A stretch of DNA of 64,000 bases from contig NZ_JAUOEM010000007.1 in the NCBI RefSeq assembly GCF_030540875.1, positions 1 through 64,000 of the forward strand, in the 5' to 3' direction. The notes below the pieces were generated by a model. It ran no database searches. It saw nothing but the letters and a program-made list of their open reading frames with translations, and had not been told where the DNA came from. Within the stretch, counting starts at the first letter, position 1, and the number at the start of each line of letters is the position of its first letter. The DNA is from Flavivirga amylovorans (GTDB taxonomy: Bacteria > Bacteroidota > Bacteroidia > Flavobacteriales > Flavobacteriaceae). Positions 6,487 to 31,113 of the stretch are shown piece by piece. A program made the position numbers and the translations under genes.

Positions 6487-7413
6487 CTATACAGAGGTTT
6501 TGTTTTTATTAAAAAGTACAGGAGTTGAATAGAATTTGGGTTTTTCGTATTTATCCCATAATCCCCAAAATGCACCAACATCTCCTTCATCTCCTACTTT
6601 CCACGATTCATCAAATGATGAAAAATAAAAAATATCGATATCGTCTTGTTTAGACCATTGTTGGGTATTGATAAAGTACGTTATCGCGTTTATAAATGAA
6701 GGTAAAGCACCATTTAAGCCCTCACCTTGGCTAGGCCATCCGGTTTCAGATATAATAACCTTTTTACCATTGGCTGCTTTTACGGCTTGGTTAAACATAT
6801 CTTTCATATAGATCAATGAATATTCGATATTACACCCTTCCCAGTAAGGATAACAATTGGCCAAAATAACATCGCATGCTTCTGTTATTTTTGGTCGTTG
6901 TGTAAATTCGTAGTAAGCATCTACATAGCCAACAGGAGTATCAGGAATTTTATTTTTTACATGGTAAATGAAACCCAAAAGCTCATCTTCTTTTAAATCA
7001 CCTCTATACATCACTTCGTTTCCAACTGCAGCAATATCTACATAACCCTCTTTTGCAAGTTTTATAAGCCCAGATATTTCTTTTTTGTTTATTTCAGTGT
7101 CATCACCTAACCATGCTCCTACTAAGGTTTTAATACCGTACTCTTTAGCAATAACAGGAATTAATTCATTGCCGTCTGTACAGGAGAACGATCGGATCCA
7201 TTTGGTATAGGGTTTTATAATTTCCATACGGCGCCTAATTTGCTCAACATTTATTTGGTCTCCAGGTGACTGCCCTTCTTCGTAAGGACTAAAGCATAAT
7301 CCATGCATGCCACTTTTAAGGACTCTCTTAAATGTATTCTGTAACCCTTTTATTGTTTTGTTTTCTAGGTTAAGGCCAGATAGGGCCATAATTTTATCTG
7401 ATCTGTACGACAT
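6487..7413 (-). CDS. GH17 beta-1,3-glucanase without signal peptide
   Basis: 308 aa TIM-barrel glycosidase of family GH17, which hydrolyses beta-1,3-glucan with retention. The acid/base is E133 (AVGNEVMYRG) and the nucleophile E223 (IISETGWPSQ). The AWLGDD and ANCYPYWEG stretches are also family-like. No signal peptide or lipobox is visible, unlike the second GH17 in the operon, so it should act in the cytoplasm on imported laminari-oligosaccharides or have an unusual export route. It is the last gene of the operon, 18 bases after the symporter gene, which supports an intracellular role. Confidence 0.88.
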   Translation of the reverse strand: MSYRSDKIMALSGLNLENKTIKGLQNTFKRVLKSGMHGLCFSPYEEGQSPGDQINVEQIRRRMEIIKPYTKWIRSFSCTDGNELIPVIAKEYGIKTLVGAWLGDDTEINKKEISGLIKLAKEGYVDIAAVGNEVMYRGDLKEDELLGFIYHVKNKIPDTPVGYVDAYYEFTQRPKITEACDVILANCYPYWEGCNIEYSLIYMKDMFNQAVKAANGKKVIISETGWPSQGEGLNGALPSFINAITYFINTQQWSKQDDIDIFYFSSFDESWKVGDEGDVGAFWGLWDKYEKPKFYSTPVLFNKNKTSV

Positions 7414-14800: not shown

Positions 14801-15289
14801 CGTTGATTTTTTTACAAATCCAAATTCATTGCTAGTGTTCCAATGGTATCTGTATGTTAAGCCTAAATCAAGGTTATTCTCTTCAAAAACAATTTTATTC
14901 CCATATATATTCTTGTACAGGTTTGTTTGGGTCTTGTAAATACCCATCTGGCGAATAGAAAATGGTTCCCATATGTGTGGCTTTCCATTTTTATGTATCT
15001 GGAAAATAGCCTTACTTCCAGTAATTTCCGATGATTCGGTTATTTTATCATCTGTATAATAAGGAAATAATGAAAACTCCGCATTCTTTCTTCCAGCAGT
15101 TAAGCCCCCGTTGCTTGAAATAAACATCCAGTGATTAGAATCGCTGACTATGCTCATAAAGAAAGAGCGCATCGCATCACTATTAGAAATTTTATAATAG
15201 GTTTCATTTTCAAAGCTCACATAGTCCCCTTTTATACTACTCATATGATTTGAAATTTTAGGTTCATCTATAAAAACTGTACTATTCAT
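11831..15289 (-). CDS. GH149-type beta-1,3-oligoglucan phosphorylase
   Basis: 1152 aa, no signal peptide, so cytoplasmic. Size and motifs fit GH149, the large relatives of cellobiose phosphorylase (GH94) that split beta-1,3-gluco-oligosaccharides with phosphate to give glucose-1-phosphate. Visible: an N-terminal beta-sandwich part, then a helical barrel with RPEWNDANNALVG, whose D654 lies where GH94 has its catalytic acid. The C-terminal block holds HKSPELYGAFPTDPYSHTPA followed by KGAQQPGMTGQVKED, which reads like the phosphate-site region. Its place between surface proteins and glycosidases supports a laminari-oligosaccharide substrate. Family assignment is from memory of the motifs, not a search. 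Confidence 0.85.
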   Translation of the reverse strand: MNSTVFIDEPKISNHMSSIKGDYVSFENETYYKISNSDAMRSFFMSIVSDSNHWMFISSNGGLTAGRKNAEFSLFPYYTDDKITESSEITGSKAIFQIHKNGKPHIWEPFSIRQMGIYKTQTNLYKNIYGNKIVFEENNLDLGLTYRYHWNTSNEFGFVKKSTLINNSDFKINVNVLDGLQNILPASVTADTQSGRSNLVDAYKKSELQIEVGLGVYALSAVIVDKAEPSEALKANTVWSAGLQNPTHLLSSLQLDNFRKRQDIHQEVDIKAEKGAYFVSAEITLDAGAEKNWMFVANVNQSISDIVKVSKIIKNEKDITRLIQKDIDAGTKNLIQLTSASDGLQLTADPLINTRHFSNTLFNIMRGGIFDDGYTIEKTDFIKYIAKANKSFFNKKKDQLKNLPETFTLNYLKNLAEQDVDDVFKRLSFEYLPLKFSRRHGDPSRPWNKFSINTHSEIDGSKILDYEGNWRDIFQNWEALAHSYPEFIESMIHKFLNATTFEGYNPYRVTKDGFDWEVIEENDPWSYIGYWGDHQIIYLLKFLEFIEDHYPGKLEARFDQDIFVYANVPYKIKSYQDTLINPKDTIDFDHKLDAKINEAKQKLGADGALLRDKKDAIYKVNLIEKLITTVLAKVSNFIPEGGIWLNTQRPEWNDANNALVGNGVSMVTLYYLYRFLNFFENIIEKSETKQIEISEALKIFFDEIVSTLETNKHTLSGNVSNKDRKTILDGLGSAGSKYRNTIYEEGFTSNKTVITRSAILSFIAITKNYLQHTIDANKRKDNMFHAYNLMTVENDEEVSISYLPEMLEGQVAALSSGYLSPKEALDLLNCLKNSALFRDDQYSYVLYPDKELPRFDKKNNIPSEKVEQSDLLKQLIEDGNSHIVEKDVLSGYHFNGNFNNANSLKEALENLPKDSYEPLVEKDTKLLLTIFEEIFDHKSFTGRSGTFFGYEGLGSIYWHMVSKLLLAVQENCLQAINTSQNEKLIGKLLDHYYEINAGIGVHKSPELYGAFPTDPYSHTPATKGAQQPGMTGQVKEDVLNRFGELGVFVNNGRITFNPRLLRKEEFLKTPKTFTYTDVKKMEWEMLLEADTLCFTYCQVPIKYQLSNKDSLQVFFNNNRQLNFDNLSLISEISKSIFQRKGEVTQINVLLKR

Positions 15290-15395: not shown

Positions 15396-18300
15396 TTATT
15401 CAAGTCTTATATCATCGAAATAATAGGTTTCTTCTGAATCTGTAAGGGTACCATCTGTACCGTCTGGGTTATCTGGTTTTACAACCAGTTGATTAAGTCC
15501 GGTATTATTACCAGGGATGCCCGTAAATACTACCTCTACCTCAGTCCAAGTATTGGCCTGTGTTATGGTTCTATATTGTGGTCCTGGGTTTCCTGAACCT
15601 GGAGGTTGAGGATCGCTATTTACTTCAAACTTCATAACCACATTTGCTTTGGTTGAATACACTTTGAATTTAAATGTTTTAGTAGCATCAAAATTACTAG
15701 GGAAAGGATTTTGGAAACCACCCCATCTATTCGTTCCGTTGCCTTTAACGACTTTCAATACATTATCTGAAGTGTTTATTCCCCCTATTGCAGGGTTTGC
15801 TGAAAGCTCTGTCGTAATACTTCCATCGTTAGCAAAGGTGCTAATGAAAGATTCACAGCTTTCAAAATCTACTGGGAATGCTGTCGCAGCAACTGCCGAA
15901 CCGGAACATCCACCAGTACCACCAGTTGATCCTGACTTATAGAAATATAGGTTATCCATGAAAACAACAGCTGGGTTCACCCCTTTTTGCGCATCAATTT
16001 TGAACTGCAAGATTTTAGTAAAATCAACCCCTGTAAAATCAGTTACAGGAATATCATAACTCTTCCATTCACCTTGTGTTAAATTTGGTAAGCCGACCAA
16101 TAATTCGTTTGGAGGACTTATTGGCGTTATTTCTAATACCGTAGCGTCTGGTGTCCAAACATCGACATGTAAAAATTCCATATCGGAGAAATCCGTATCA
16201 CCTGCCAATTGCATCCCTATGAATTTCACATTGCTATATTTTATCGCATCGTTACCTTGAATAGCCACCGTTTCGGAAACTAAATCACCTTGCCAATTGG
16301 TATCTAAATTGGTACCCGCTATATCCGTATACGTATCACTAAATACTGATTTTACATTCGCAGCGTCCTGAGTTGGTGTTGGTGCCGCCATTGTTGGTTC
16401 TGTAGGCGCAGGTCCTGATTTGTAGAAATACAGGTTGTCCATATAGACTACAGCTGGATTCACACCTTTTTGCGCATCAATTTTGAACTGTAATATTTTA
16501 GTAAAATCAACCCCTGTAAAATCAGTTACAGGAATATCATAACTCTTCCATTCACCTTGTGTTAAATTTGGTAAGCCGACCAATAATTCGTTTGGAGGAC
16601 TTATCGGCGTTATTTCTAACACCGTAGCGTCTGGTGTCCAAACATCGACATGTAAAAATTCCATATCGGAGAAATCCGTATCACCTGCCAATTGCATCCC
16701 TATGAATTTCACATTGCTATATTTTATCGCATCATTACCAGCTATAGACACAGTTTCAGAAACTAAATCACCTTGCCAGTTGGTATCTAAATTAGTACCC
16801 GCTATATCGGTATATGTATCACTGAATACAGATTTTACATTAGCAGCATCTTGAGTAGGTGTTGGTGCTGCCATGGTTGGTTCTGTAGGAGCGGATCCTC
16901 CTGATTTATAGAAATATAGGTTATCCATATAGACTACAGCTGGATTCACACCTTTTTGTGCATCAATTTTGAACTGTAATATTTTAGTAAAATCAACCCC
17001 TGTAAAATCAGTTACAGGAATATCATAACTCTTCCATTCACCTTGTGTTAAATTTGGTAAGCCAACTAATAATTCATTTGGAGGGCTTATCGGCGTTATT
17101 TCTAATACCGTAGCATCCGGCGTCCAAATATCGACATGTAAAAATTCCATATCAGAGAAATCGGTATCTCCTGCCAATTGCATCCCTATGAATTTCACAT
17201 TGCTATACTTTATGGCATCATTACCTTGAATTGCCACCGTTTCGGAAACTAAATCGCCTTGCCAATTGGTATCTAAATTAGTACCGGCTATGTCTGTATA
17301 GGTATCACTAAATACTGATTTAACATTTGCAGCGTCCTGAGTTGGTGTTGGTGCTGCAGTTGTTGGCTCAGTAGATGTACCACCTCCACCATCACCAAAG
17401 GAAATATCATCGAAATAATAAGTTTCTTCAGAATCTGTTAAGGTACCGTCTGTACCATCTGGATTATCTGGTTTTATAACCAACTGATTAAGACCTGTGT
17501 TATTACCAGGTATTCCCGTAAATATTACCTCTACTTCAGTCCACGTGTTAGCATCTGTTATAGTCGCGTATTGTGGGCCGGGGTTTCCAGAACCAGCAGG
17601 TTGAGGGTTGCTGTTTACCTCAAATTTCATAACAGCATTAGCCTTAGATGAGTATACTTTCACCTTAAGTGTTTTGGTCGCATCAAAATTTTCAGGAAAT
17701 GCATTTTGAAATCCAGCCCATCTGTTAGTTCCGTTAGCTTTAACTACTTTTAATACATTATCTGAGGTGTTTACACCAGCTTTATCCGGGTTGCCTGAAA
17801 GCTCAGTAGTTATACTTCCGTCGTTGGCAAATGAGTCTACAAAAGACTCACAGGCTTCAAAATCTACAGGGAATACAGTTGCTGCAACAGGCGTATCTGT
17901 ACATGCTCCTCCTGTAGTATCTGTTTCAACTTGCTCTAAATTATCGAAGTAAAAAGTTCCTGAGGCTGTGCCTGGGCCATCTACAAAAATCACGAGCTTA
18001 GGATATGTTCCCGAATCGGAGAAGTTAAAAGATAATTCTTCCCAACCTGTACCGCCATGATTAACCGTAACTTCGACAAAATCATTTTCTGAAATTTCAA
18101 GTTTAAGTAGTACGCTTATTGGAGCGTCTGACCAAAAATCCATTTTTATGGTTTTTTCTGTAGATAGGTCTATTGAAGTTCCTAACTCGAAAGCAATACC
18201 TTCAAAAGTAGCTCCGCTATTGGTTAATGCTCCAACTTTTGAAGCATCCGTATTTGACCCTGAAGGATCGGGATTATCTACTATTGCAAAAGAAGCACCA

Positions 18301-18692
18301 CTAAAAGGGTCACCACCATAATTCACATTGTCCGAATCGAATGAGATAGGAAACACAACAGCTTCTGGAATTGCTATCTCGATGTCGTCTTCAAACGTAT
18401 CAGATGCTCCTGCAACATTTACAGACTTAAGTGCAATAGTGTAAGTACCATTGGTATAAACTTTTACTGGATTAATGAGAGTAGATGTGTCATCATCTCC
18501 AAAATTCCATTCATAGGTATTTGCGTTTTCTGATATATTGATAAAGGTTACGGTTCCCGTATTCATATCAACGGTATAACTAAAACCAGCTTCAACTCTT
18601 GGTAATACGGCATCATCATCTTCACATGCATTGAAGGATAATGCCAATATCAAAATGGATATATATTTAAATGTTTTTGTTATAGTTTTCAT
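15396..18692 (-). CDS. surface lipoprotein: PKD plus repeated carbohydrate-binding modules
   Basis: 1098 aa. Lipobox SFNAC (Cys23) followed by acidic EDDD, a typical surface-lipoprotein export signal in Bacteroidota. Domains in order: PKD (about 33-110, with YEWNFGDDDTST); a beta-sandwich module (about 112-255); module B1 (about 271-430); three nearly identical modules C1-C3 (about 441-595, 604-755, 766-919); and module B2 (about 927-1098), a close copy of B1. No catalytic residues are recognisable. Modules end in strands like VVYMDNLYFYKSG or EETYYFDDI, typical of carbohydrate-binding jelly-rolls. It probably holds the glucan at the surface beside GH16. It is 16 bases after the GH16 gene. 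Confidence 0.85.
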   Translation of the reverse strand: MKTITKTFKYISILILALSFNACEDDDAVLPRVEAGFSYTVDMNTGTVTFINISENANTYEWNFGDDDTSTLINPVKVYTNGTYTIALKSVNVAGASDTFEDDIEIAIPEAVVFPISFDSDNVNYGGDPFSGASFAIVDNPDPSGSNTDASKVGALTNSGATFEGIAFELGTSIDLSTEKTIKMDFWSDAPISVLLKLEISENDFVEVTVNHGGTGWEELSFNFSDSGTYPKLVIFVDGPGTASGTFYFDNLEQVETDTTGGACTDTPVAATVFPVDFEACESFVDSFANDGSITTELSGNPDKAGVNTSDNVLKVVKANGTNRWAGFQNAFPENFDATKTLKVKVYSSKANAVMKFEVNSNPQPAGSGNPGPQYATITDANTWTEVEVIFTGIPGNNTGLNQLVIKPDNPDGTDGTLTDSEETYYFDDISFGDGGGGTSTEPTTAAPTPTQDAANVKSVFSDTYTDIAGTNLDTNWQGDLVSETVAIQGNDAIKYSNVKFIGMQLAGDTDFSDMEFLHVDIWTPDATVLEITPISPPNELLVGLPNLTQGEWKSYDIPVTDFTGVDFTKILQFKIDAQKGVNPAVVYMDNLYFYKSGGSAPTEPTMAAPTPTQDAANVKSVFSDTYTDIAGTNLDTNWQGDLVSETVSIAGNDAIKYSNVKFIGMQLAGDTDFSDMEFLHVDVWTPDATVLEITPISPPNELLVGLPNLTQGEWKSYDIPVTDFTGVDFTKILQFKIDAQKGVNPAVVYMDNLYFYKSGPAPTEPTMAAPTPTQDAANVKSVFSDTYTDIAGTNLDTNWQGDLVSETVAIQGNDAIKYSNVKFIGMQLAGDTDFSDMEFLHVDVWTPDATVLEITPISPPNELLVGLPNLTQGEWKSYDIPVTDFTGVDFTKILQFKIDAQKGVNPAVVFMDNLYFYKSGSTGGTGGCSGSAVAATAFPVDFESCESFISTFANDGSITTELSANPAIGGINTSDNVLKVVKGNGTNRWGGFQNPFPSNFDATKTFKFKVYSTKANVVMKFEVNSDPQPPGSGNPGPQYRTITQANTWTEVEVVFTGIPGNNTGLNQLVVKPDNPDGTDGTLTDSEETYYFDDIRLE
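15935..17370. repeat. three tandem near-identical ~485-bp coding repeats
   Basis: Three direct repeats within the surface lipoprotein gene. Equivalent points start at 16018, 16501 and 16987, giving periods of 483 and 486 bases (161 and 162 codons). Long stretches are base-identical, including synonymous positions, which indicates recent duplication or gene conversion. Confidence 0.9.
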
Positions 18693-18708: not shown

Positions 18709-19551
18709 TTAGTTGCTTCTATTATAAACACGTACATAATCTACAAGCATGGTTTGGGGGAATACGGTTTCTGCGTTTGGAGCACCTGGTAATTCTCCTC
18801 CAACAGCTACATTTAATATGATGTAGAAAGGGCCTTGATTAAACACCCATTCTCCGGGAACGTCTTCGGGTGTTATCTGATTATACAATACATCATCTAC
18901 ATAAAAATTAATATAGTCTGGCCCCCATTCTATACCGAATATGTGAAAACCTGTATCGAATCTATCGTTGTCTAATATGTATGATTTACTTATAGATTCA
19001 CCAGCAGAATACCCAGGGCCATGAACGGTACCAAATATCTTAGAAGGTTCATTTCCTAAATATTCCATGATATCTATTTCACCTATTTGTGGCCATACTT
19101 CTGTACCGTTAGAATCGTCTCCCAATAACCAAAATGCAGGCCAGATACCTTGTCCGTAAGGTAACCTGATACGAGCTTCAAAACGCCCATAGGTTTGTTC
19201 AAACTTTCCTTTAGTTAAAAGTCTTGCTGAAGTATAAGAAGATTGTTCAAATTGTTCTTGTTTTGCCGTTATAATGAGCACACCATTTTGTACTGTAACA
19301 TTTTCGGTACGGTCAGTATAATATTGTAACTCATTATTTCCCCAACCGTTTTGTCCTGTTCCTATATCATACCCCCAAATGGTTGAATTAGGCGCTCCAT
19401 CTGTGTCAAACTCATCTGCCATAACGAGTTCTGTGAACGTTGCTACAGTTTGTGTTTCATTAGTTTCACAGCTAGATATCACAAAAAAGGAAACTATCAA
19501 GAGCACTGAAATGAATAGCTCTTTTATTTTATATGTATGTTTTTTAGTCAT
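18709..19551 (-). CDS. GH16 endo-beta-1,3-glucanase (laminarinase), lipoprotein
   Basis: 280 aa. Lipobox VISSC with Cys28. The mature protein is a single GH16 jelly-roll: IWGYDIGTGQNGWGNNELQYYT at the start, RFEARIRLPYGQGIWPAFWLLG in the middle, and the catalytic signature GEIDIMEYLG with nucleophile E158, D160 and acid/base E163. The residue spacing ExDxxE and the WGNNELQ motif fit the laminarinase branch (GH16_3). It cuts internal beta-1,3 bonds of laminarin, probably at the cell surface. Neighbours on both sides are glycan-binding lipoproteins. Confidence 0.94.
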   Translation of the reverse strand: MTKKHTYKIKELFISVLLIVSFFVISSCETNETQTVATFTELVMADEFDTDGAPNSTIWGYDIGTGQNGWGNNELQYYTDRTENVTVQNGVLIITAKQEQFEQSSYTSARLLTKGKFEQTYGRFEARIRLPYGQGIWPAFWLLGDDSNGTEVWPQIGEIDIMEYLGNEPSKIFGTVHGPGYSAGESISKSYILDNDRFDTGFHIFGIEWGPDYINFYVDDVLYNQITPEDVPGEWVFNQGPFYIILNVAVGGELPGAPNAETVFPQTMLVDYVRVYNRSN

Positions 19552-19584: not shown

Positions 19585-21060
19585 TTATTCTGTGTAGAAG
19601 TATATGTTATCGACAATAATGGATGAAAGTGTAAGTCCAGAGACAAATGTTATTGAACCCATATGAGTTCTATTGGCAATACCACCACTAAAATTATTGC
19701 CACCTGTTGGGTTTGTAAAATTGTCCAATGATAGATCGAAACTCATCCATGTTCCACTTGTTAATTCGCTTGAAGGTATACTAAGTCCACCACCATTATC
19801 AACAAAAGGTTCTATGACACCGTCACTTCCAGCATTAACTAGTTCCACCGTTAATTGATCACCCGAGTCGATTGATTCTTGGATATATAAATCAAAATGT
19901 ATTCTATTCTGGCTGGTTAGGTTTACCGTCGGGTTTACAAATTGTGTGGTTACAAAACCAAAATCTTGATCAAAATTATTATATAAGAGAATATTGTCAT
20001 TCCCTAAACTAGCTACACCTCCTGTGGTGCCCTGACCCTGAAAATTTCCGTTGTAAAAATCAACCGGGATATTTGTATAGGCATCACTAAAAATCGATAT
20101 GACATTGGATTCTGGTAGTGTTGGTGTTGGAGCTGGTTGTAAACTACCATTGGATGTTACTTTTAACGATCCCTTAGCTTCAACACCCGCCAAAACTGCG
20201 GTTATGCTTGCTGTACCTTGACTGTTAACTGTGACCAAGCCATTTTCATCTACACTGGCAACACTTGGCTCTGATGACGTAAACGTGAAATAGGCAGGTG
20301 CTGTGTTTACTGTTACATTCCTTCCATTTGTATTAAACGTTTGTGTAAGGCCACTTGCTGCCAAGTCTATTTGACTGCCGTTAAAAGATTGTTGTTCTAC
20401 ATCCTGACCGCTTAAAATAACAGGTTGTGGCTGCGCAACTGTTCCTAGTTTTTCAAACTTAACTTCATCTATCCAAAAAGTATATCCTACTTCACTACCT
20501 ACTGGACCGATACCTCCTGCTGAGTATCTTAATAAACCACGTTCTTGAATCAACTTGGACGGATCTGGGATAGGAATAGTATATTTTACCCAATTTGTTG
20601 TTAAGTCTATATTTGTTCTAGTGGTTACGTATTTGTTCTCACCAAAATCTTCACCAAACCCCACTTCTCCTATCGTAACAGCTTGAGAAGCCTTTGCCCA
20701 AAACGTTAAGGCATCAAAACCTGATAAATCTCTACCAGAGCCTTCCCCATCGACTCTAAAGATGGCTCCAGCATAATTTCCATCTGGATCGTTTGCATTT
20801 GGCACATCAAAACGCATAGATGCAGTACCTTCATAGCTTACTTCATTATCTACAGTCCAGGCTGTGGCTTTTGATCCGATATAAGGAAAATAAAAATCAG
20901 TGCCTAAACCAACAGGAGAGTCCGTAAAAATTTCTGCTGTGTTTGGGAATGTTGCAAATACGGCTTCATCGGACAATTCTCTTTCGCAGCTTACTAAAAT
21001 TGTAAAAATGAATCCTAAAAGGCAGGTCATTTTTGTATATGTAAATTTTGTATTTTTCAT
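19585..21060 (-). CDS. surface glycan-binding lipoprotein with Big_2 domain
   Basis: 491 aa. Lipobox ILVSC (Cys25). Three parts can be read. A carbohydrate-binding-like beta-sandwich (about 40-215) ends in SEVGYTFWIDEVKFEKL. A bacterial Ig-like Big_2 domain (about 225-310) contains SSEPSVASVDENGLVTV and GTASITA. A C-terminal module (about 325-491) opens with VISIFSDAYTNIP and ends in VDNIYFYTE, a distant relative of the triplicated module in the neighbouring 1098-aa protein. No catalytic signature is visible. Likely a surface glycan-binding protein for the glucan. 12 bases after the barrel-fusion gene. Confidence 0.82.
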   Translation of the reverse strand: MKNTKFTYTKMTCLLGFIFTILVSCERELSDEAVFATFPNTAEIFTDSPVGLGTDFYFPYIGSKATAWTVDNEVSYEGTASMRFDVPNANDPDGNYAGAIFRVDGEGSGRDLSGFDALTFWAKASQAVTIGEVGFGEDFGENKYVTTRTNIDLTTNWVKYTIPIPDPSKLIQERGLLRYSAGGIGPVGSEVGYTFWIDEVKFEKLGTVAQPQPVILSGQDVEQQSFNGSQIDLAASGLTQTFNTNGRNVTVNTAPAYFTFTSSEPSVASVDENGLVTVNSQGTASITAVLAGVEAKGSLKVTSNGSLQPAPTPTLPESNVISIFSDAYTNIPVDFYNGNFQGQGTTGGVASLGNDNILLYNNFDQDFGFVTTQFVNPTVNLTSQNRIHFDLYIQESIDSGDQLTVELVNAGSDGVIEPFVDNGGGLSIPSSELTSGTWMSFDLSLDNFTNPTGGNNFSGGIANRTHMGSITFVSGLTLSSIIVDNIYFYTE

Positions 21061-21072
21061 CTTAGTCTTATT

Positions 21073-24000
21073 TTATTTACCAATATTGATGTGTACATAT
21101 GTTCTAATCTCCCATTCGCTTCCGTTATCAAATCCTACAGGACTTATAGGAGGTATAGCCGGAAATGTGTTTGGAGGAACAGCAGTTGGTGAATATCTTG
21201 GTGAGTTTTGATCTAAGGAACGCCAAGTACCACGGAGACCTATTTTAGTATCTGGAAGAATAAACCAATCTGGCTTACCTATGGATGTAGAAATATCGAT
21301 CATGTTTTGAACCGGGAAAGTCAAGTTGAAATCACGATGGTAATCAAAAGGTCCCCAATCGTTAACCTTGAAACCATATTCTATTTTCCACTTTTTGTAT
21401 ATCATTTTGATGTCACCTCCAAAGCGTTCTATCGTTCTGTCACTATCACCATTTGCCTGAGCGTTGCCTCCATAAAAATTCCCAATAATACCTAAGTCTG
21501 GACTTACTTTAGAAACAACACGAGAACTTAATTCCCAGAGGTCTTGTGCAGGTGCAGCCTGTGGAAAAGCAAAAAATGTACGATTTGCTAAAAACCCAAT
21601 ATGTGCATCTTGTGATGTTGGCTGATGTCTAAATACAAAACCTAAGTTAAAAGCAAATTTTGCATCTTCAGCACGATCGTTGTTCCACTCATAAAACCAG
21701 GATCCAGGGGTTGGATCGAAGGTTAAGAGTAGTTCTCCTGCTGTGGTTTCTCTGTTACCTCTTACAGCGAATGGGTCGTCTATAAAGTTTCTTAATCTTC
21801 CTGGTGCGATTACATCATTAGGCATAGGATCTACTAGAGGTTTTTGCCAAAGGAAATTTGGTGCTATTTGCCAATTTCCAATGCTGTATGTGAAACCAGA
21901 AAGTATATTGGTTTGGTTACCACTTCCAGAGTCTTTAAGTTTCCAGCCCGTAAATGTTCTTGTAGCATCTGCGCCTCCATTGGCGACCAATCCCATATAT
22001 GCAGCTTGTGCATAGAAATTAAACCGTCCTTTTTCATAGGTTATTTTGGCTTTTCCTCCCCAGTTATCATCTGAGTTTATTTTATCTTGATATACTACGT
22101 AGTTACCTGGACCACCTGTTACATCTTGAAATGTACTACCGTTAAGAGGACTTCCTCCCCAAATACCTCCTAAGGAGATACCAAAGGCTCCAAAGTCTCT
22201 TTCTAAAACTACGGTAGCACGTTCTGTGGGCCAAGGTGGAATAACACCACTTTGTACCTGATTAGCATTTAAAAATCGTAGTCCATTATCATCAAATTCT
22301 AGGCTCGTATCTAAATCTCTATGATAAATACCAGTAATATCCCAATGCTTAAAATGAGTTCTGTATTTTAATAATACCGTTGGATTTGCTCCCCACCATA
22401 ATTGTGGGCCAAAAGCAGCTTTAAGGCCTTTTAAAGACCCTTTTCCATCAATCTCCATTCCCAGAATCTCACCATTGTAAATATCTAAGTTTGGTCCGTA
22501 GTTAGCTTCTGGGTATAAGCCAAAGAAATCGCCTTCGTACCCCCAATGGTAGTGGCCGGTTCTGTAAAACCCTCTTACATCTGCCACTTTAGATTTCCAT
22601 TCAAACTCAGCATTGTACACTCTCACTCTGTTGTTATCTGTAATAATAACTTCTTCGCCGTTTGTATTGGTAACTGTAACTGGTCTACCTACGTTCTCGT
22701 AAAATATCTCATTAATAGGGTTTTGTGCTACATTGCCAAGAATATTGAAGTTAACTTCAGCTCTCATGTTTGAGGTGGGATTCCCTTTAACACCAACATA
22801 ATAAGATTGCATGTGGTCAAAACCAAGCTGATTAGGAAATGCTTCTTCATTTGGATTTGCAGTCTTTGGGGTTGTTAATAAAGAACCTCCTGTACTGAAT
22901 GTGGTAAATTCAGCTCGTAAATTGCTTAATCGTATTTTACCTGCACTATTTGCTCCAAGTGCCGCCTTATCACCTCTGGCTCTTAATACCGCATCCATTA
23001 ACTCTATATTGCTGAAATAATTATCAACAAAATCTAAAGTGACATCCTTAGCATAAGGATCTAAACTGTGTGCTTCCTTTAAAGCATAATATGCAGCACG
23101 TGGATATAAGTCATATAAACCTCTTTCGTTAGTTGGTCCTTTTGCACAAATTCCAAACCACTCCTCGTTCATGTTGTTTTGTCCTGGCTCTAAATCGAGG
23201 TAATAGCCTCCATTGGCCCAAGAAGCGTTATTATCATGAACATCAAGGTTTTTTGTTTGCCCGAACTTCCACCAGCCATCACTAAATTGAAATGTAAAAC
23301 CTCCTATAGAGTTTCCTGATTTTCCTAAACCAGCAGCATTTTGATAGATTTCCTTCCAGTTTTCTACCATAAAAAAGGCTTGCATCTTTTGATCCTCTTT
23401 ATTTGTAATGGCATTGAATGCATCAGAACCAAACTCTGTAAACAAGATAGGTTTATTTAATTCGTTTTTAACGCGTTCAAAGGCATCACCAAACGATTTA
23501 CCACGATACATGTTTACACCATAAATATCGACGTCTTTACATTCTTCTGCTACGATATCGGCAAACAATAAATCTCCATTACAAATGGCTACCGGGTGCG
23601 ACGCATCAATGGCCTTCATTTTAAGCACAGCATCGTTCATTAATTTATACATAGGTCTTCCGCGCTTTTCACCTACTTCTCGTTTTTTATCTTCTTCATC
23701 CGGAAAGTCCTCTGTTTCGGCTCCAGCCCAGAATAGACCATAATTATTTTCGTTCCCAAGCAGGAATAATAATAGTCCGGGAGTATCTTTATAGGTCTTT
23801 GCCATTGTTGTTACCTCAGATAAAAGTAATTTCTGAGTGGCTGGATCTCTGTAGTCTGTAACTGCTACCCATGCGCCATTTATGGTTAAACCATATCGAC
23901 CAAATGAATGGTTGAGCATGGTGTAGATACCATAATTCTCATAGATATACTTTATCCATTTAGGTTGTACGCCTGTGTATTGTCTTATAACATTTACCCC

Positions 24001-24252
24001 CATGTTTTTTAACAGACCCATTTCGGCATCTAGTGCTGCTTTAATTACAGCATCAGATTGTTTCCATAAGCTATAGGAGTAATTGGTGCCAATTGGAAAG
24101 TAATCCCAATTCATACCATTAATCATGAAATCTTTTCCATTAACAACTAATTTCATGCCTTCATCATTACTTACAACGGATACTTCATCTGACTGTGCAA
24201 ATGCTGTTACCGTAAATAAGAAGAATACTAATCTTAGAAAATTGTTTTTCAT
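21073..24252 (-). CDS. putative glycosidase fused to an outer-membrane beta-barrel
   Basis: 1059 aa. Signal peptide MKNNFLRLVFFLFTVTAFA-Q. Residues 25-400 form a TIM-barrel glycosidase of GH2/GH5-like type: FMINGMNWDYFPIG, NVIRQYTGVQPKWI, acid/base E168 in LLGNENNYG and nucleophile E273 in PILFTEFGSDA. From about residue 440 the character changes to amphipathic strands with aromatic ends (RVRVYNAEFEWKSKV, ATVVLERDFGAFGISLGGI, KIEYGFKVNDWG, EWEIRTYVHINIGK), as in an outer-membrane beta-barrel. I know no described family with this combination. It is the first gene of the operon and the only candidate outer-membrane pore in a locus without SusC. Domain split and barrel are inferred by eye. Confidence 0.75.
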   Translation of the reverse strand: MKNNFLRLVFFLFTVTAFAQSDEVSVVSNDEGMKLVVNGKDFMINGMNWDYFPIGTNYSYSLWKQSDAVIKAALDAEMGLLKNMGVNVIRQYTGVQPKWIKYIYENYGIYTMLNHSFGRYGLTINGAWVAVTDYRDPATQKLLLSEVTTMAKTYKDTPGLLLFLLGNENNYGLFWAGAETEDFPDEEDKKREVGEKRGRPMYKLMNDAVLKMKAIDASHPVAICNGDLLFADIVAEECKDVDIYGVNMYRGKSFGDAFERVKNELNKPILFTEFGSDAFNAITNKEDQKMQAFFMVENWKEIYQNAAGLGKSGNSIGGFTFQFSDGWWKFGQTKNLDVHDNNASWANGGYYLDLEPGQNNMNEEWFGICAKGPTNERGLYDLYPRAAYYALKEAHSLDPYAKDVTLDFVDNYFSNIELMDAVLRARGDKAALGANSAGKIRLSNLRAEFTTFSTGGSLLTTPKTANPNEEAFPNQLGFDHMQSYYVGVKGNPTSNMRAEVNFNILGNVAQNPINEIFYENVGRPVTVTNTNGEEVIITDNNRVRVYNAEFEWKSKVADVRGFYRTGHYHWGYEGDFFGLYPEANYGPNLDIYNGEILGMEIDGKGSLKGLKAAFGPQLWWGANPTVLLKYRTHFKHWDITGIYHRDLDTSLEFDDNGLRFLNANQVQSGVIPPWPTERATVVLERDFGAFGISLGGIWGGSPLNGSTFQDVTGGPGNYVVYQDKINSDDNWGGKAKITYEKGRFNFYAQAAYMGLVANGGADATRTFTGWKLKDSGSGNQTNILSGFTYSIGNWQIAPNFLWQKPLVDPMPNDVIAPGRLRNFIDDPFAVRGNRETTAGELLLTFDPTPGSWFYEWNNDRAEDAKFAFNLGFVFRHQPTSQDAHIGFLANRTFFAFPQAAPAQDLWELSSRVVSKVSPDLGIIGNFYGGNAQANGDSDRTIERFGGDIKMIYKKWKIEYGFKVNDWGPFDYHRDFNLTFPVQNMIDISTSIGKPDWFILPDTKIGLRGTWRSLDQNSPRYSPTAVPPNTFPAIPPISPVGFDNGSEWEIRTYVHINIGK

Positions 24253-24555: not shown

Positions 24556-27360
24556 TTAAATTTCTAGAATATAGTCTGTTAAGCTAGATTCATGCTGTAA
24601 ATTCATCTTTTTCCTTAATCTGTATCGTTTTACTTCAACGCTTCTTGGCGAGATATTGAGTAGCGGAGCTATTTCTTTTGAGGATAAGTTTAACCTAAGA
24701 TATGTACATAATCTTAAATCGTTAGAAGTAAGCGAAGGGTGTTCCTGTTTGATCTTTTTTAGAAAATCTTTATCTGCATTATTAAAAGCTTCTTCGAAGA
24801 CATTCCAGTCATCTGTATTATTTATATTTCTGTCAATTATTTTAATGACATGTTTTACATTTTTAATGTCATTAACATTTTGTAATTCCTTTTTTAAACT
24901 ATTCAAGAACTCATTCTTTTTAATTAAGCTCATTGTTGAAATACCCAGTTCACGATTTTTATTGTCTATATCTTGTCTTAATTTTTCATTATTAAAACTC
25001 ATGAGTTGTTGTCTATTTGCAAGCTCCTTTAGTTCTAGTTCCCGTTTGGTTTTTTGTAGTAATGCTTCTCTTTGTTTTCTGTAATAACGTTTGTAAATAT
25101 GGTGCATCATTAATGAAAACAATAAAACAAAAATGACATATGCTGCTATCATTATATTAGAAAGATACCATGGCCTTTCTATATTGAAACGATAGGAAGC
25201 TATATTTTTAGTAAGGGCATTACCGACCCTTGCTCTTACATTAAATGTATAATTGCCAAAAGGTAAATTTTCGAATAATGTATTAGGTTTGGAGGACCAA
25301 TTACTCCAGTTTGGATACATCCCTTCTAACTGATATTGATACTTTGTATCGAGATATTTATCAAATTCTGCAACACTAAACGAGAACTCTATATTGTTGT
25401 CCTTATTTTCAAAATTTCCGTTAATATTTTTATTTACGGTTTCCCAAGTATTGGAGATACTGTGTTTGGTGATCGAATTAATTGAAATCTCATAAGGCAT
25501 ATTAGATATTTTGTCTAGGTCTAAAACAACAAAACCTGTTGAGGTTCCTATTAAATACTTCTGGTTATATAGGAAGGATATGTTTTCGTAACCTGTTAAG
25601 CCCCGAGGCAATGATTTGGAAAAAGGGATTCTGTTAACCTTTAGGGCATTACTTAATTTACTCGGAGAGATATAATTAAGATTACTTCTAGAAAAGCTCC
25701 ATAAAGTATTTGTTTCTTTGTTAAATTCTAGCCTCCCTGAAGTATAATCTTCTTTTGAGAAAAGTGTACTTAAAACAGTATCTTTTAAAAATTTATTAAT
25801 TTCGGAATGATACTCTAAAACACCTTCTTTATAAATATATAATAGTTTATTATTGTATTTAGTAATACTGGAGTTTAGTTCTTTTCCAAGATCTGGATCT
25901 TTTATAATGTTTAGAGCTTTTGTGAAATTTTTGTCTACATCAATTTTAAAAACACCTTTATATTCGTGGCTTACAAAAATTTGATTATTGTAAAGCTCAA
26001 AGAATTTACTTGATAGGTCAAAACCGTCTATCTTATTTTTAAATACCCATTTGTTATTGATTTTCTGAAGGATGTACAAACCATCATAATTACCTTGTAA
26101 TAGTAAGTCTGTTTTGTCAATTGATTTTATATCCCAGGTACCTTGTTGTATACCTTTAATTTTTTCAGCTATGTTGTTATTTATAACAGAGGTCCCTGTG
26201 TCGTGTCCACAAAACAATGTATTATCTATTATAGTTAAACTCCAAACAGCTTCTTGAACCCCTTCAACTCCTTTGAAATTTTCTTGTGCCTCCAAAGACT
26301 TATAAAATAATCCCTGATTGGTACCTAAATATAAATTACCGTTAAAAACGGAAGTCGTGTATATAGTTCCTATTTTCCCTTTTTCATCGGGATAAATTCT
26401 AAATGGAGACTTAATGTTTATACAATTAATACCATTTTCTAAGGCTAACCAGATATTGTTTTCTACGTCTTCAAAAACCCCATGCACGGTATTATTACTT
26501 AGTCCATGAAATGTGTTGATATTATAATCAATGGTACCATCTGGAGTTAGATGTAAAATACCATTAGATCTGGTTCCTAATATAAAACTATTGTCTTTTA
26601 ACTGAATGCTACGAAATACACTAACCTCTGATAGTTTTTTGTTTGCAGAGATATCCCATTTAGAAAGGTTTTCATCATTTAAAATATAAAACCCGTTATT
26701 CTCAGTCGCTATTAAAAGGTGCCCATTTTTATTAAAAATATTAACGAGTCTATTTTCTTTAAGAATTATATTATCAGAAACGAGTTTTGATTTGCCGTTC
26801 TCTATCTTGTAGATGCCGTCCTTCGTTTTTTGATAGTATATGGTTTTATCAACTTTGAATATTTTGTAAATAATAGTTTCAGAATCGATGATACTATAAG
26901 AAGCATCTGTTTTATTGTAAATATAAATTCTCTTTAAAGATTGAAATAATATGTAGTCATCTACACTTATAATGTTCCAGAATTCTTCATCTTCTAAAAA
27001 GTCTACTTTTAATTTTTCAGATAGCGATGTATAATATAGCTGCCCCAATTCGTTTCGTTGCCAATATCCAAACTCTCTATTACTGCCTGTATATATTAAA
27101 TTATCAATAACGTTAACAGATCGAATAATAGTTTCATTAGGGGACACATATAATTGCCAATTTGCTCCATTAAATTCAAGGAGTCCTTTATTATTGGCTA
27201 CATAAATGTAATTTTCTTTAGATTGAGAAATGGACCAATTTTGAGTTTCGGCACCATAATCTTTTGGTGAAAAAATTTCAATAGGAGGGTGTTCTTGTGC
27301 ATATAAGAAGTTTGATGCCAAGAAAAATAAATTGAAAAGCAAAAAATAGAATCGTCTCAA
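24556..27360 (-). CDS. SusR-like membrane regulator (beta-propeller, Y_Y_Y, LuxR-type HTH)
   Basis: 934 aa. Signal sequence MRRFYFLLFNLFFLASNFLYA, then a large beta-propeller sensor (about 25-640) of the two-component-regulator propeller type. A Y_Y_Y-like domain follows (about 655-730, with YQLEGMYPNWSNWSS), then one membrane helix (about 735-757) and a coiled coil (about 760-840). The C-terminal LuxR/GerE-type HTH (about 870-934) has LSSKEIAPLLNISPRSVEVKRYRLRKKM. No histidine kinase or receiver domain is present, as in SusR of Bacteroides. It probably senses glucan oligosaccharides in the periplasm and activates the operon just downstream. The start is TTG at 27360; no ATG gives the signal peptide. 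Confidence 0.88.
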   Translation of the reverse strand: MRRFYFLLFNLFFLASNFLYAQEHPPIEIFSPKDYGAETQNWSISQSKENYIYVANNKGLLEFNGANWQLYVSPNETIIRSVNVIDNLIYTGSNREFGYWQRNELGQLYYTSLSEKLKVDFLEDEEFWNIISVDDYILFQSLKRIYIYNKTDASYSIIDSETIIYKIFKVDKTIYYQKTKDGIYKIENGKSKLVSDNIILKENRLVNIFNKNGHLLIATENNGFYILNDENLSKWDISANKKLSEVSVFRSIQLKDNSFILGTRSNGILHLTPDGTIDYNINTFHGLSNNTVHGVFEDVENNIWLALENGINCINIKSPFRIYPDEKGKIGTIYTTSVFNGNLYLGTNQGLFYKSLEAQENFKGVEGVQEAVWSLTIIDNTLFCGHDTGTSVINNNIAEKIKGIQQGTWDIKSIDKTDLLLQGNYDGLYILQKINNKWVFKNKIDGFDLSSKFFELYNNQIFVSHEYKGVFKIDVDKNFTKALNIIKDPDLGKELNSSITKYNNKLLYIYKEGVLEYHSEINKFLKDTVLSTLFSKEDYTSGRLEFNKETNTLWSFSRSNLNYISPSKLSNALKVNRIPFSKSLPRGLTGYENISFLYNQKYLIGTSTGFVVLDLDKISNMPYEISINSITKHSISNTWETVNKNINGNFENKDNNIEFSFSVAEFDKYLDTKYQYQLEGMYPNWSNWSSKPNTLFENLPFGNYTFNVRARVGNALTKNIASYRFNIERPWYLSNIMIAAYVIFVLLFSLMMHHIYKRYYRKQREALLQKTKRELELKELANRQQLMSFNNEKLRQDIDNKNRELGISTMSLIKKNEFLNSLKKELQNVNDIKNVKHVIKIIDRNINNTDDWNVFEEAFNNADKDFLKKIKQEHPSLTSNDLRLCTYLRLNLSSKEIAPLLNISPRSVEVKRYRLRKKMNLQHESSLTDYILEI

Positions 27361-27546: not shown

Positions 27547-30500
27547 TTATTTCTTTACTAATCGTGTTCTTATAACTTTATTATTGGTAGATAAAACGAC
27601 TACATAAACTCCAGAACTAAGATTATCTAATACTACTTGAGTATTATGATTTGTTAAGGATTGAGATAGGACTACATTACCAACAAGGTCATAAAAAACT
27701 AAACTTGCATTTGTTTTTAAATCAGTAGACAGTGGAACTTCTACATTAAAAACATGTCCAGCAGGATTAGGATATAACTTGAATCCTTCCTCATCTATGG
27801 TGTTTTCTTCTACAATACTTTCGGCATTGATAGCTTTCGTATCAGCAACTTTAGATGTTGAAGGCTTAGGAGTAATAATAATTCTGGTAGCAACCCAATT
27901 TATATCGGTTCCACCTCCGTCTGAAAACTCTATAGATAGCTTACCATCATTTACGGTAACGTCAAAATTTCTATTAAAAAACGTATTGCCTGGTGTTGTA
28001 TCTATATTGGTTAGTTTTGTAATGCCTTCGGCTTTCACAATAATATCATCATGTGAATTTGTAGCATCTCCAAAGGTAATTAAGACATTGTACTCGCCAT
28101 TTAAAACATCTGCTTCGAATGTTCTTGGTTGACTGGAAAAGACAAAATCTCTATTCAAGTTATTAACCCCTCCAGAAGTTCCACGATCTCTTGAATCTAA
28201 ATTTGATGCATTAGTCCATCCATAGGCTCCTGTGGTAGACTGAGATACTCTATTGTAGCCTGTAAATACTGCAGATGTTGGTGTTCCTAAATCGAATAGA
28301 AGTGGAGATTGCGTTTGCGTTTCTATTGGTTTAATAATCATTCTTGTTAGCACCCAATTTGGGTCGCTTCCGCCTCCATCTGAAAATTCTACAGATAACA
28401 GACCATCATTTACAGCAACTTCAAAAATTCTATTAAAGAACGTATTACCTGTTGTAGTATTTACATTCGTGAGCTTTGTAACGCCTTCTGCTTTTACAAT
28501 AATGTTGTTATGAACAGAAGTTGCATCTCCAAATGTGATTAAAACTTCATAACTTCCATTTGGAACTTTAACTTCAAAAGTTCTGGGTGAACTTCCATAA
28601 ACAAGGTCTCTATTTAAATGATTTACACCTCCGGAAGTCCCACGATCTGTAGCATTTACACCATTGGTATTAGTCCAACCGTATAATCCCCCTGTAGTTT
28701 CGTTAGAAACTCTTTGATAACCGCTAAATACAGTTGAAGTTGTTGTTCCGAAATCAAAAAAGAAACTGGTCTCATTAAATACACCGGCACAAGGCGTCAT
28801 GGAATAAAGTAGTTGACCAGTGTTATAATACAATCTATCATTAATAGTTGCCGGATTATATGGATCGCTTGTATATGATGCTAAGCCTTCAAAATGCTGT
28901 TTAACCATTCGACGATAATCGTTTTTGTTTGGAACGGCACATCGATACGAATCTGAATATAATCCGATACTCTCAAAAGGAATGTTAGGAGCATAACTGG
29001 GTCTAGGTTCTTTAAACTTAAAGTTCATATCGTTTGGGTTTTCAAAGATACTCAAGTTAATCGCTTGACTTCTTTGAACTGCTGCATTCGTATCTCCTCC
29101 TAATTCAACATCTTTGTCATTACTCCAAAACATATTGTCATAATACCTGCATTGATATCCATTCATCTGATTGTTATCTGAATAAGCTTTCATTGAATAA
29201 TTAAAGAATGGATACCTATCCTTCCAAAACTGTTCAATTCTACTATACCAGTTTGTTTCATTCAATCCGGATTGCCATCCTGAAACCCCAATTTTCTGTA
29301 GCATTCTCCCGATATAATTTTCTTTATTTGAAGAAGTCGGTGATTTGCCATTGGTACTATTTATATACTCTATAGAGCTGTTGTACCTTGAAGAACCTCC
29401 TTTACCTTGACGAATTCCTCTGTTACCATCCATTATAACATTAAATTGTACAGTATGCCCAGCACCTCCATTCATTTTCAAAACTTCCCATCCTCCTTTA
29501 TAAGTCACATTTTCTCGCATTTGATCTCCTCCATCAAAATCATCTGAGAAAATAGATGCACGTCCTAATAATGTTGGAATAGACATGATGTGGTGAATAA
29601 AATTATGTCTTAGCATATTTCCATAACTCATAATATCTCCTCCAGAATATATGGCACCTCCATCTCCTTCTTCAATACCTACATTGAAAACCTCATTACG
29701 TTCTATTATATGGTCTATACCTCCATAAGTAATGGGTTGAATATTTTCATTATGAACCAAGTTATTTTTAAAAATATTTCTAACGCCCTGAATTCCAGCT
29801 GCTTTTCCGTTAAAGTCTTTTGAGTAAATTTGAGTAAAATGGCAGTTTTCAATTCTATTGTTACCAGTTACTATGGTTCCATCTGAGGAAAAAGATCCGC
29901 CATACAATCTTGTACAGTTAGGAATGTCAAAGAAATCACAACTTTTAGCTGTAGAATTAGATACATCATGTAAAAAGTTAAGAGCCAATATAGGAGCTGA
30001 AATGTATCTAAATGTAACGCCTCCTACAAAGAAGTTATCTCCAGATTTGAAATTCAAAGCTGCATCTCCATTAACACCTGCTCCCAATCCCTGAATCGTC
30101 ATTTTTTCAAAATGGATATAGCTTCCACCATTAACTTCCACCATTTGAGGACCAGCCCATACGCCTATTGTTGACTCATTTGTTATTGTAGACAATGGCC
30201 ATATGTATAGTTTATTATTAGACTCATCAAAATACCACTCTCCAGGTTCATCTAATTCACATAATAAGTGAGATACAAAAAAGCGATTTGGACCCGGTCT
30301 GTTTTTTATACCATAACGCGATCCATCACGTAAGTGGATCTCACCGGAATTACTAACACTATTAATTGCTAATGTTCCTTTAAACCAATCTGCAGAAACG
30401 TACCCTCGTATAAAAGCACTTCCTGTTCGATTTAACTCTGCATTCCATTTGGATGCATTAAATGAAAAAGCATTGTCCATCTTAAATTTTGCTCCTAAAG

Positions 30501-31113
30501 GGTTACTTGCTGTTCCTTTAGCCGATTGTTGCCCTGATGGAGGTGCCGATTCTGTTGAATTATTGATCGTATTGTCATTAATAGCAGAAAAACCAATGTT
30601 TGGATATCTTGATGGTGTCATCATTTTATCATCCATGGACATCTGAGCCGTTTGAGATTTTTTTATAACATTAATGACCGTTTGATCGGTTAGTGTCTGC
30701 ACATATACATTTCCTGGTGCTGTAGCATGTAGTATACCATTATCCCCTGATGGAACCAGCTCAAAAGCGCTATTGTCTATAAGAATGGTACCATCAAAAA
30801 TAACTTTTTCATTTTGATACCCTGTGTACACTACTGGGCTTCCTGAAGTTCCTGAATCCTGACTCCCAAAAGTAGTTACTGTTGTTACAGGATATCTCCC
30901 TGCTCTAAAATTAACGGTAACACCACCAGAAGAAACGCCTATACTACGAATTTTGTCTCGTGCGCCTTTTAAAGTTCTTAAAGGGGAATTTATTGTTCCC
31001 GAATTTGAATCGTTTCCTGTAGGAGAAACATAAAGATTTGTCTGCCCGTGCATGTCTGGGGGTAATAAGCTGATAGATAATACCAACAGAAATAATTTTA
31101 ATGATTGTTTCAT
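27547..31113 (-). CDS. T9SS-secreted beta-helix carbohydrate-active enzyme
   Basis: 1188 aa. Signal peptide about 1-23. The catalytic part (about 25-780) is a right-handed parallel beta-helix beginning NLYVSPTGNDSNSGTINSPL, with a GDGGAIYSGG motif near residue 485. This suits polysaccharide lyases or beta-helix glycosidases such as GH141-like proteins; the exact family is not recognised. Two tandem carbohydrate-binding modules follow (about 784-928 and 938-1078), each starting FDxGTxTSxVFxGYxRVS and containing RDRGTSGGVNxLNRD. The end (about 1105-1188) is a T9SS sorting domain: FKLYPNPAGHVFNVEV, then GVYVVVLSTNNKVIRTRLVKK. It should be released or attached at the cell surface. Upstream of the regulator, same strand. 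Confidence 0.82.
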   Translation of the reverse strand: MKQSLKLFLLVLSISLLPPDMHGQTNLYVSPTGNDSNSGTINSPLRTLKGARDKIRSIGVSSGGVTVNFRAGRYPVTTVTTFGSQDSGTSGSPVVYTGYQNEKVIFDGTILIDNSAFELVPSGDNGILHATAPGNVYVQTLTDQTVINVIKKSQTAQMSMDDKMMTPSRYPNIGFSAINDNTINNSTESAPPSGQQSAKGTASNPLGAKFKMDNAFSFNASKWNAELNRTGSAFIRGYVSADWFKGTLAINSVSNSGEIHLRDGSRYGIKNRPGPNRFFVSHLLCELDEPGEWYFDESNNKLYIWPLSTITNESTIGVWAGPQMVEVNGGSYIHFEKMTIQGLGAGVNGDAALNFKSGDNFFVGGVTFRYISAPILALNFLHDVSNSTAKSCDFFDIPNCTRLYGGSFSSDGTIVTGNNRIENCHFTQIYSKDFNGKAAGIQGVRNIFKNNLVHNENIQPITYGGIDHIIERNEVFNVGIEEGDGGAIYSGGDIMSYGNMLRHNFIHHIMSIPTLLGRASIFSDDFDGGDQMRENVTYKGGWEVLKMNGGAGHTVQFNVIMDGNRGIRQGKGGSSRYNSSIEYINSTNGKSPTSSNKENYIGRMLQKIGVSGWQSGLNETNWYSRIEQFWKDRYPFFNYSMKAYSDNNQMNGYQCRYYDNMFWSNDKDVELGGDTNAAVQRSQAINLSIFENPNDMNFKFKEPRPSYAPNIPFESIGLYSDSYRCAVPNKNDYRRMVKQHFEGLASYTSDPYNPATINDRLYYNTGQLLYSMTPCAGVFNETSFFFDFGTTTSTVFSGYQRVSNETTGGLYGWTNTNGVNATDRGTSGGVNHLNRDLVYGSSPRTFEVKVPNGSYEVLITFGDATSVHNNIIVKAEGVTKLTNVNTTTGNTFFNRIFEVAVNDGLLSVEFSDGGGSDPNWVLTRMIIKPIETQTQSPLLFDLGTPTSAVFTGYNRVSQSTTGAYGWTNASNLDSRDRGTSGGVNNLNRDFVFSSQPRTFEADVLNGEYNVLITFGDATNSHDDIIVKAEGITKLTNIDTTPGNTFFNRNFDVTVNDGKLSIEFSDGGGTDINWVATRIIITPKPSTSKVADTKAINAESIVEENTIDEEGFKLYPNPAGHVFNVEVPLSTDLKTNASLVFYDLVGNVVLSQSLTNHNTQVVLDNLSSGVYVVVLSTNNKVIRTRLVKK

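Follow-up and report, generated by a model that had tools for sequence, protein, structure and literature searches.

The window analysed here, a 64,000-nucleotide stretch of Flavivirga amylovorans DNA (contig NZ_JAUOEM010000007.1, positions 1 to 64,000), encodes a protein in which, as structure prediction supports, a clan GH-A glycosidase is joined in one chain to an outer-membrane beta-barrel. The 1059-residue product, for which we use the working name GH-OMBB, is encoded by an intact minus-strand open reading frame (ORF) at 21073-24252; in the corresponding frame of the plus strand there are many stops. From its N terminus the chain comprises a signal peptide (about residues 1-20, assigned by eye), a predicted clan GH-A TIM barrel (about residues 24-405), a helical joint (residues 406-432), which runs into the first barrel strand, and the predicted beta-barrel (residues 440-1056). 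The catalytic half (residues 1-415) corresponds to 23008-24252 and the barrel half to 21076-22977, both on the minus strand. With slightly better than even confidence, we read GH-OMBB as an outer-membrane portal for laminarin with a built-in hydrolase at its periplasmic side.

A first-pass annotation, made from the sequence, had proposed a glycosidase with acid/base E168 (in a GNEN motif) and nucleophile E273 (in a TEFG motif), and this assignment has held up. Both glutamates are invariant in 63 full-length homologues (alignment A1, for which 18 of the 80 best-scan loci were left out) and in 32 of 32 enzyme-domain sequences with identities down to 24%, and the clan GH-A fold is recovered by profile search, by AlphaFold2 (AF2) and by Foldseek. 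E168 lies just after the strand formed by residues 160-166 of the full-chain AF2 model, and E273 lies within the strand at 269-275, which matches the clan GH-A geometry reported in BuGH158 for E137 and E220 (PMC7157763). No mismatch of the catalytic glutamates to a GH-A active site appeared.

With respect to family, Pfam gave a match of GH-OMBB to the GH2_C TIM-barrel model (28.9 bits, just above the cut-off of 21) and a weaker one to Glyco_hydro_cc, below its own cut-off; as a single sequence, the enzyme half reached an E value of only 0.15 against GH158. A profile of 32 relatives gave as its top match in the PDB the GH158 enzyme 9oro (E 2.8e-15), with the GNE and TEFG motifs lined up with those of GH158; among the best 60 of 105 matches, it was followed by a GH2 glucuronidase, BuGH158 (6pal), LaGH157 (9fz9) and then many GH2 enzymes. 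A Foldseek search with the enzyme fold placed the endo-laminarinase BuGH158 first (E 8.2e-12), with GH158 enzymes occupying ranks 1-6 and GH157 rank 7. Because GH158 comes first in both searches, with its motifs aligned, the enzyme half is probably a GH158/GH157-like beta-1,3-glucanase domain, probably unclassified, and not a GH2 enzyme; we infer a specificity for beta-1,3-glucan. The clan GH-A TIM barrel is common to GH-OMBB, GH158 (BuGH158, 6pal; GH158(Pro), 9oro) and GH157 (LaGH157, 9fz9), as are the Asn-Glu acid/base after strand 4 and the Glu at strand 7, whereas the fold alignments give only 12-13% identity. BuGH158 has a C-terminal Ig-like domain (PMC7157763), in place of which GH-OMBB has the outer-membrane barrel and its stand-alone homologues have nothing. 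The latter terminate past the joint helix; neither form has the Ig-like domain that packs against the TIM barrel in BuGH158. GH2 enzymes carry sugar-binding and Ig-like domains N-terminal of the TIM barrel. An ordinary GH2 identity was rejected, the enzyme domain of GH-OMBB starting right past the signal peptide and the N-terminal GH2 domains having no Pfam match.

The C-terminal half had been proposed to be an outer-membrane barrel; the predicted structure, the fold search and the statistics of the strands all uphold this. AF2 modelling of residues 426-1059 alone (634 residues; pTM 0.71, pLDDT 72.5) predicted a transmembrane beta-barrel with 28 strand elements; two 4-residue elements, which form a hairpin in one loop, were excluded before the loop test, leaving 26 strands, or 24 if residues 707-714 and 717-724 are also a loop hairpin. 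The 50 listed Foldseek matches of the barrel (of 277 at E ≤ 0.001) are outer-membrane barrels without exception, including TonB receptors, MOMP, ushers, LptD, Opd porins, chitoporin and AlgE; one, titled only 'membrane protein', we take to be LptD. Hydrophobic alternation along strands of 8 or more residues was 0.363, compared with 0.202 ± 0.030 in within-strand shuffles, none of 5000 of which was as high. Long segments, averaging 21.6 residues, follow the odd strands, and short ones, averaging 4.8, the even strands (a single segment of 21 departs from this), a contrast with a one-sided Mann-Whitney p of 8e-5 for the 26-strand count and likewise 8e-5 for the 24-strand count. The more hydrophobic strand faces are rich in F, I, V, L, Y and W and the opposite faces in G, N, E, T, R, K and D, a descriptive result, the faces having been picked by hydrophobicity. 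The predicted model thus has the even strand number, amphipathic strands and short periplasmic turns of an outer-membrane barrel. Since the strand number is even and the long loops lie opposite the N terminus, the enzyme should face the periplasm, as judged from the strand count and loop pattern of the predicted barrel.

The barrel fold resembles those of chitoporin, AlgE, LptD and TonB receptors in the Foldseek comparison, but a profile search shows no sequence relation to them, and we know of no glycosidase fusion in any of these proteins. No plug domain was matched in GH-OMBB by Pfam, and a SusC-like TonB receptor identity was rejected for want of an N-terminal plug. Derivation of the barrel from a present-day free-standing porin was likewise rejected: a barrel query hits 13 of 295 genomes of the class, each time within a frame of 1041-1093 residues, and the barrel profile matched no ORF of under 950 residues in the fetched loci.

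Directly downstream of GH-OMBB lies the gene for a predicted lipoprotein of 491 residues, CBM491 (19585-21060, minus strand), in which acidic residues come after Cys25 (C-ERELSDE) and a Big_2 domain is present. A scan of 84,980 species genomes gave 475 confirmed stretches, the best 80 of which form our 80-locus set; in this set CBM491 is directly downstream of GH-OMBB in all 76 loci with at least 1.6 kb of downstream sequence. It is also the next gene in 20 of 22 loci from distant genomes (L161-L166, L183-L198), one of the other two having a relative upstream and one being at a contig end. The Cys at the lipobox position is invariant (24/24), and acidic residues usually come next. Acidic lipoprotein starts are a surface-export signal in Bacteroidota. 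Such a start is also found in the GH16 and PKD proteins of the same gene cluster, whereas the GH17 protein termed GH17A is mostly without it. Scanning with a crude lipobox pattern (79 CBM491, 81 GH16, 69 PKD, 65 GH17A and 32 GH30 sequences) gave at least two acidic residues at positions +2 to +6 in 45/58, 57/66, 59/60, 5/33 and 9/20, respectively, the remainder giving no lipobox. Of 24 CBM491 proteins, four matched CBM11 and two CBM30, weakly; the window's own CBM491 has Big_2-type domains only.

Homologues that lack the barrel are informative in this regard. Eight fetched loci (L150-L157; 3-16 kb) encode the enzyme without a barrel, 52-60% identical over the matched part, in stand-alone frames of 438-480 residues (one, of 364, is clipped by a contig end); a ninth enzyme-only gene (G392) and a broken gene (G291) lie outside the fetched set. 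GH149 is kept in six of the eight and GH17 in five, but a CBM491 profile matched in none. A raw Fisher test of the fusion against CBM491 with seven stand-alone loci gives 8e-7, a value that ignores shared ancestry. On the enzyme tree the fusion or stand-alone label changes at least five times, five changes being forced by well-supported branches. At L157:3180-3650 the stand-alone enzyme is followed by a stop, by about 55 codons resembling the first barrel strands and then by GH149; the enzyme end plus relic aligns over 117 columns with residues 378-494 of the window's protein at 44% identity. This relic of barrel strands behind the stop indicates, at the level of sequence, that the barrel was lost in the L157 lineage. 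As CBM491 is constant beside the fusion and missing beside barrel-less enzymes, the barrel and CBM491 probably work together, with CBM491 the likely surface partner.

The recurrence of GH-OMBB across our genome searches identifies it, by sequence, as a conserved Bacteroidota family and not an oddity of the F. amylovorans genome; the protein is widespread in marine bacteria. A full-length fusion is present in 14 of 60 relatives' genomes (the window's own counted), with eight more having a distant enzyme-domain relative only (frames of 338-362 residues). Among 395 genomes spread over the Bacteroidota, 48 had a match (row tally), 33 of which were near full length, nine covered the enzyme part (53-61% identity; two with an internal stop), one was a broken gene and five were distant enzyme relatives. 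The cassette is also present in a metagenome-assembled genome (MAG) named Formosa sp. Hel1_33_131 (L072), SusCD being absent from its stretch. For Formosa Hel1_33_131, the GH16 of polysaccharide utilization locus (PUL) 2 is reported to be expressed on laminarin only (PMC6246565), and gene order suggests that PUL 2 is the GH-OMBB cassette. In a Maribacter MAG (L079) the cassette is split, with GH149, GH17A, MFS and a relative of the regulator upstream on the opposite strand. Distant stand-alone relatives of the enzyme (24-26% identical, about 340-360 residues) occur between GH17A and GH30 in L167 (6998-8041), L168 (7794-8807) and L169 (7679-8764), and between GH17B and GH149 in L158 (7148-8209); these four are laminarin clusters with no fusion in the fetched stretches, and the relatives keep both catalytic glutamates.

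As the first-pass annotation had it, the gene heads its operon, being the first past a regulator gene (24556-27360, minus strand; Reg_prop, Y_Y_Y and LuxR-type DNA-binding domains), from which 303 bases separate it. In 61 of 67 loci, a relative of this regulator is encoded upstream on the same strand. The run of minus-strand genes that starts with GH-OMBB at 24252 and ends at 6487 is tight, neighbouring genes being 10-106 bases apart. After CBM491 come a laminarinase-like GH16 (18709-19551; lipoprotein-type start C-ETNE); a PKD lipoprotein with repeated, probably glucan-binding domains (15396-18692; lipoprotein-type start C-EDDD); a GH149 beta-1,3-glucan phosphorylase (11831-15289; NCBIfam GH149 1794.7 bits, cut-off 1150), in which no signal peptide was seen by eye; GH17A (10531-11820), of endo type by position, with a Lys-rich lipoprotein-type start and a score of 26.5 bits (28.2 with neighbours in frame) against a cut-off of 28.2; a GH30 with a lipoprotein-type start by eye (9025-10518); an MFS_2 inner-membrane sugar transporter identified by Pfam (7432-8994); and a second GH17, GH17B (6487-7413), in which again no signal peptide was seen by eye. 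This is the GH16, GH17, GH30, GH149 and MFS set of the laminarin PUL termed variant B or 'variant 1' (PMC6298971, PMC10108472), which in Formosa Hel1_33_131, Polaribacter and Muricauda likewise comprises GH16, GH149, GH17, GH30_1 and MFS; the window's locus differs in being without the SusC/SusD pair.

In the mechanism that we propose, CBM491, the PKD protein and GH16, as surface lipoproteins, would capture and nick laminarin, the chains of which would pass into the barrel of about 26 strands, its short turns facing the periplasm. The GH158-like domain at the periplasmic mouth would cleave the emerging beta-1,3-glucan and, in a hypothetical hydrolysis-driven step, cleavage would trap the products and so pull transport inward. 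Periplasmic GH17 and GH30 would then trim the products, MFS would carry the pieces across the inner membrane, and cytosolic GH149 and GH17B would complete the breakdown. Of this picture, computation shows the domain architecture, the conserved catalytic residues and cassette, the linkage of barrel and CBM491 and the family's occurrence in genomes with no SusC/SusD above cut-off; the surface or periplasmic location of the parts, the glucan specificity, the pore and the import driven by hydrolysis are inferred.

Several observations weigh against reading GH-OMBB as a laminarin portal, and the first of these concern SusC/SusD, which the first-pass annotation had found to be missing near the gene and had proposed the fusion to replace. 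The absence stands for the window's locus and its contig (C11), on which SusD_RagB and Plug gave no matches (37 and 83 elsewhere in the genome), but it does not extend to the family: with locus models built from 20 SusC and 20 SusD sequences taken from the window's genome, a same-strand SusC-SusD pair was found to intervene between regulator and fusion gene in 24 of the 67 loci with at least 9.5 kb of upstream sequence. Mutual exclusion of the fusion and SusCD was therefore rejected. Two further loci of the 67 have SusC/D past the regulator or on the opposite strand, and on the fusion tree (88 rows; L185 and L186 left out) the SusCD state changes at least 12 times, 11 of the changes being forced. 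SusCD also lies directly upstream of two of the eight stand-alone enzymes. Where it shares a locus with the fusion or with a stand-alone enzyme, SusCD may be the importer. In addition, the window's genome has a second candidate locus (L199, contig C7:156001-172000) with a LuxR-type regulator, SusC, SusD, a GDPD-GH16 fusion, a phosphatase-family protein and GH3; its GH16 resembles beta-1,3(4)-glucanases, and beta-glucan could, judging from these genes, also enter by this route, which weakens the case for replacement of SusCD in F. amylovorans.

The idea of replacement holds only in part; in its favour is the state of some other genomes. Genome-level searches used the SusD models SusD_RagB and SusD-like_3. 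SusD_RagB is absent in six of 30 carrier genomes tested; among genomes without it, G109, G201 and G260 have SusC above cut-off, and G050, G124 and G311 (three of the 30) have neither SusD_RagB nor SusD-like_3, nor SusC above cut-off. G050 counts less because its fusion gene is on a 5.8-kb contig, the genome being 98% complete. The SusC model gave matches at E ≤ 0.001 in all seven genomes tested with it, most of them below cut-off; hence these genomes do contain other kinds of TonB receptor. No SusCD was found in the fetched stretches of the 22 distant loci, 20 of which reach 7.9-9.4 kb upstream and two of which have almost no upstream sequence; in one of these genomes (G038) a SusD gene (C1:461464-462045) lies about 11 kb upstream of the fusion (C1:447452-450583), outside the fetched stretch. 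The cassette, on this gene-content evidence, does not need SusCD, yet it often co-resides with SusCD.

The other adverse points are structural and published. The full-chain AF2 prediction supports both the TIM barrel and the beta-barrel but is of medium quality (pLDDT 69.4, pTM 0.51), with residues 322-382 mostly below 50, and the Foldseek TM-scores of the barrel against solved barrels are low (0.2-0.4); moreover, the barrel need not be an open pore and may be an anchor alone. Formosa laminarin genes are described as lying near TonB receptors and SusD, with uptake ascribed to SusCD (PMC6246565), and the Muricauda GH30 and second GH17 are predicted to be cytoplasmic (PMC13188888), unlike the placement of GH30 proposed here.

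Of the alternatives, the one that survives best, although we consider it unlikely, is that the barrel serves only as an anchor, the joint being threaded out through it in the manner of an autotransporter and the enzyme displayed at the surface, with the products imported by SusCD or other TonB receptors. The co-occurrence of SusCD with the fusion, the contig C7 locus, the TonB receptors of other kinds and the helical joint, which enters the first strand, are all consistent with such an arrangement. The C-terminal barrel of a type Va autotransporter has 12 strands, whereas 24-26 are predicted for GH-OMBB, which does not fit the classical type, and the long loops opposite the N terminus place the latter in the periplasm. 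Barrel-less homologues exist, and an anchor of 600 residues is difficult to account for when GH16 already has the appearance of a surface lipoprotein. Also improbable, in our view, is an auxiliary enzyme-porin, in which oligosaccharides would be trimmed in the periplasm beside a general diffusion pore that admits small oligosaccharides; uptake by this route would be modest, the main flux passing via SusCD. The frequent gain and loss of SusCD around a constant cassette (the 12 changes above) and the presence of oligosaccharide- or substrate-specific porin folds (chitoporin, Opd/Occ) among the Foldseek matches favour this idea, but the gene is kept in genomes without SusC/SusD above cut-off and its constant lipoprotein neighbour suggests a dedicated, not a general, portal. 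That the C-terminal half is instead a soluble all-beta assembly is very improbable: the window's C-terminal half matches no Pfam family, a 31-member barrel alignment gives only scattered weak Pfam matches (one to the porin model BBP2_2, E 0.064) and the barrel profile has no match in the PDB, but no soluble sandwich modules appeared, and AF2, the uniformly outer-membrane Foldseek matches, the alternation not reached in any shuffle and the loop statistics led us to reject it.

Turning to the literature, similar clusters have been described, with no mention found of the barrel. A like cluster in Muricauda contains a 'GH2 beta-glycosidase' (PMC13188888), which, from position and Pfam, is probably the GH-OMBB gene; by the same reasoning, the 'GH0' listed next to GH149 in laminarin loci with strong expression, one of which is without a susCD pair (PMC10108472), is perhaps also this gene. 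A published parallel is the FbGH17b-MFS fusion (PMC6246565, which also describes laminarin induction of the Formosa loci), in which a laminarin-cluster enzyme is likewise joined to a transporter; there, the transporter is helical and of the inner membrane and the enzyme C-terminal, whereas GH-OMBB has an outer-membrane barrel and an N-terminal enzyme. We found no description of the barrel or of a glycosidase-porin fusion in the open-access literature searched. The claim of the first-pass annotation that no such family had been described thus holds, within that literature, for the barrel, but probably not for the gene as such.

Glycan uptake in Bacteroidota is usually interpreted via SusC/SusD, and surveys of their glycan loci often demand a SusC/SusD pair (e.g. 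PMC11573768). Were GH-OMBB a true importer, a common laminarin locus would have been misread as containing one more soluble glycosidase and its transporter overlooked; enzyme and pore would be combined in one chain, a system in which hydrolysis-coupled transport over a membrane without its own energy source could be tested. More tentatively, and with less than even confidence, we suggest that the family may represent a new class of outer-membrane importer, i.e. a large porin, served by a dedicated surface lipoprotein, to which a periplasmic glycosidase is fused that gives import its direction by cleaving the arriving chain. It would provide a SusCD-independent and perhaps TonB-independent polysaccharide route in Bacteroidota, used on the sea's main storage glucan. 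Laminarin is an algal storage sugar and represents a major marine carbon flow.

Other genes of the window lie beyond the cluster. Upstream of the regulator, 27547-31113 encodes a protein of 1188 residues that weakly matches the GH141 insertion and has a galactose-binding domain of the beta-agarase type (in two stretches) and a Por secretion tail. A leucine-rich-repeat protein of 546 residues with a listed TTG start is encoded at 31508-33148. The neighbouring ORFs at 37351-38823 and 38849-40297 look alike by eye and are probably a tandem duplication; the first has FG-GAP repeats and a Por secretion tail according to Pfam.

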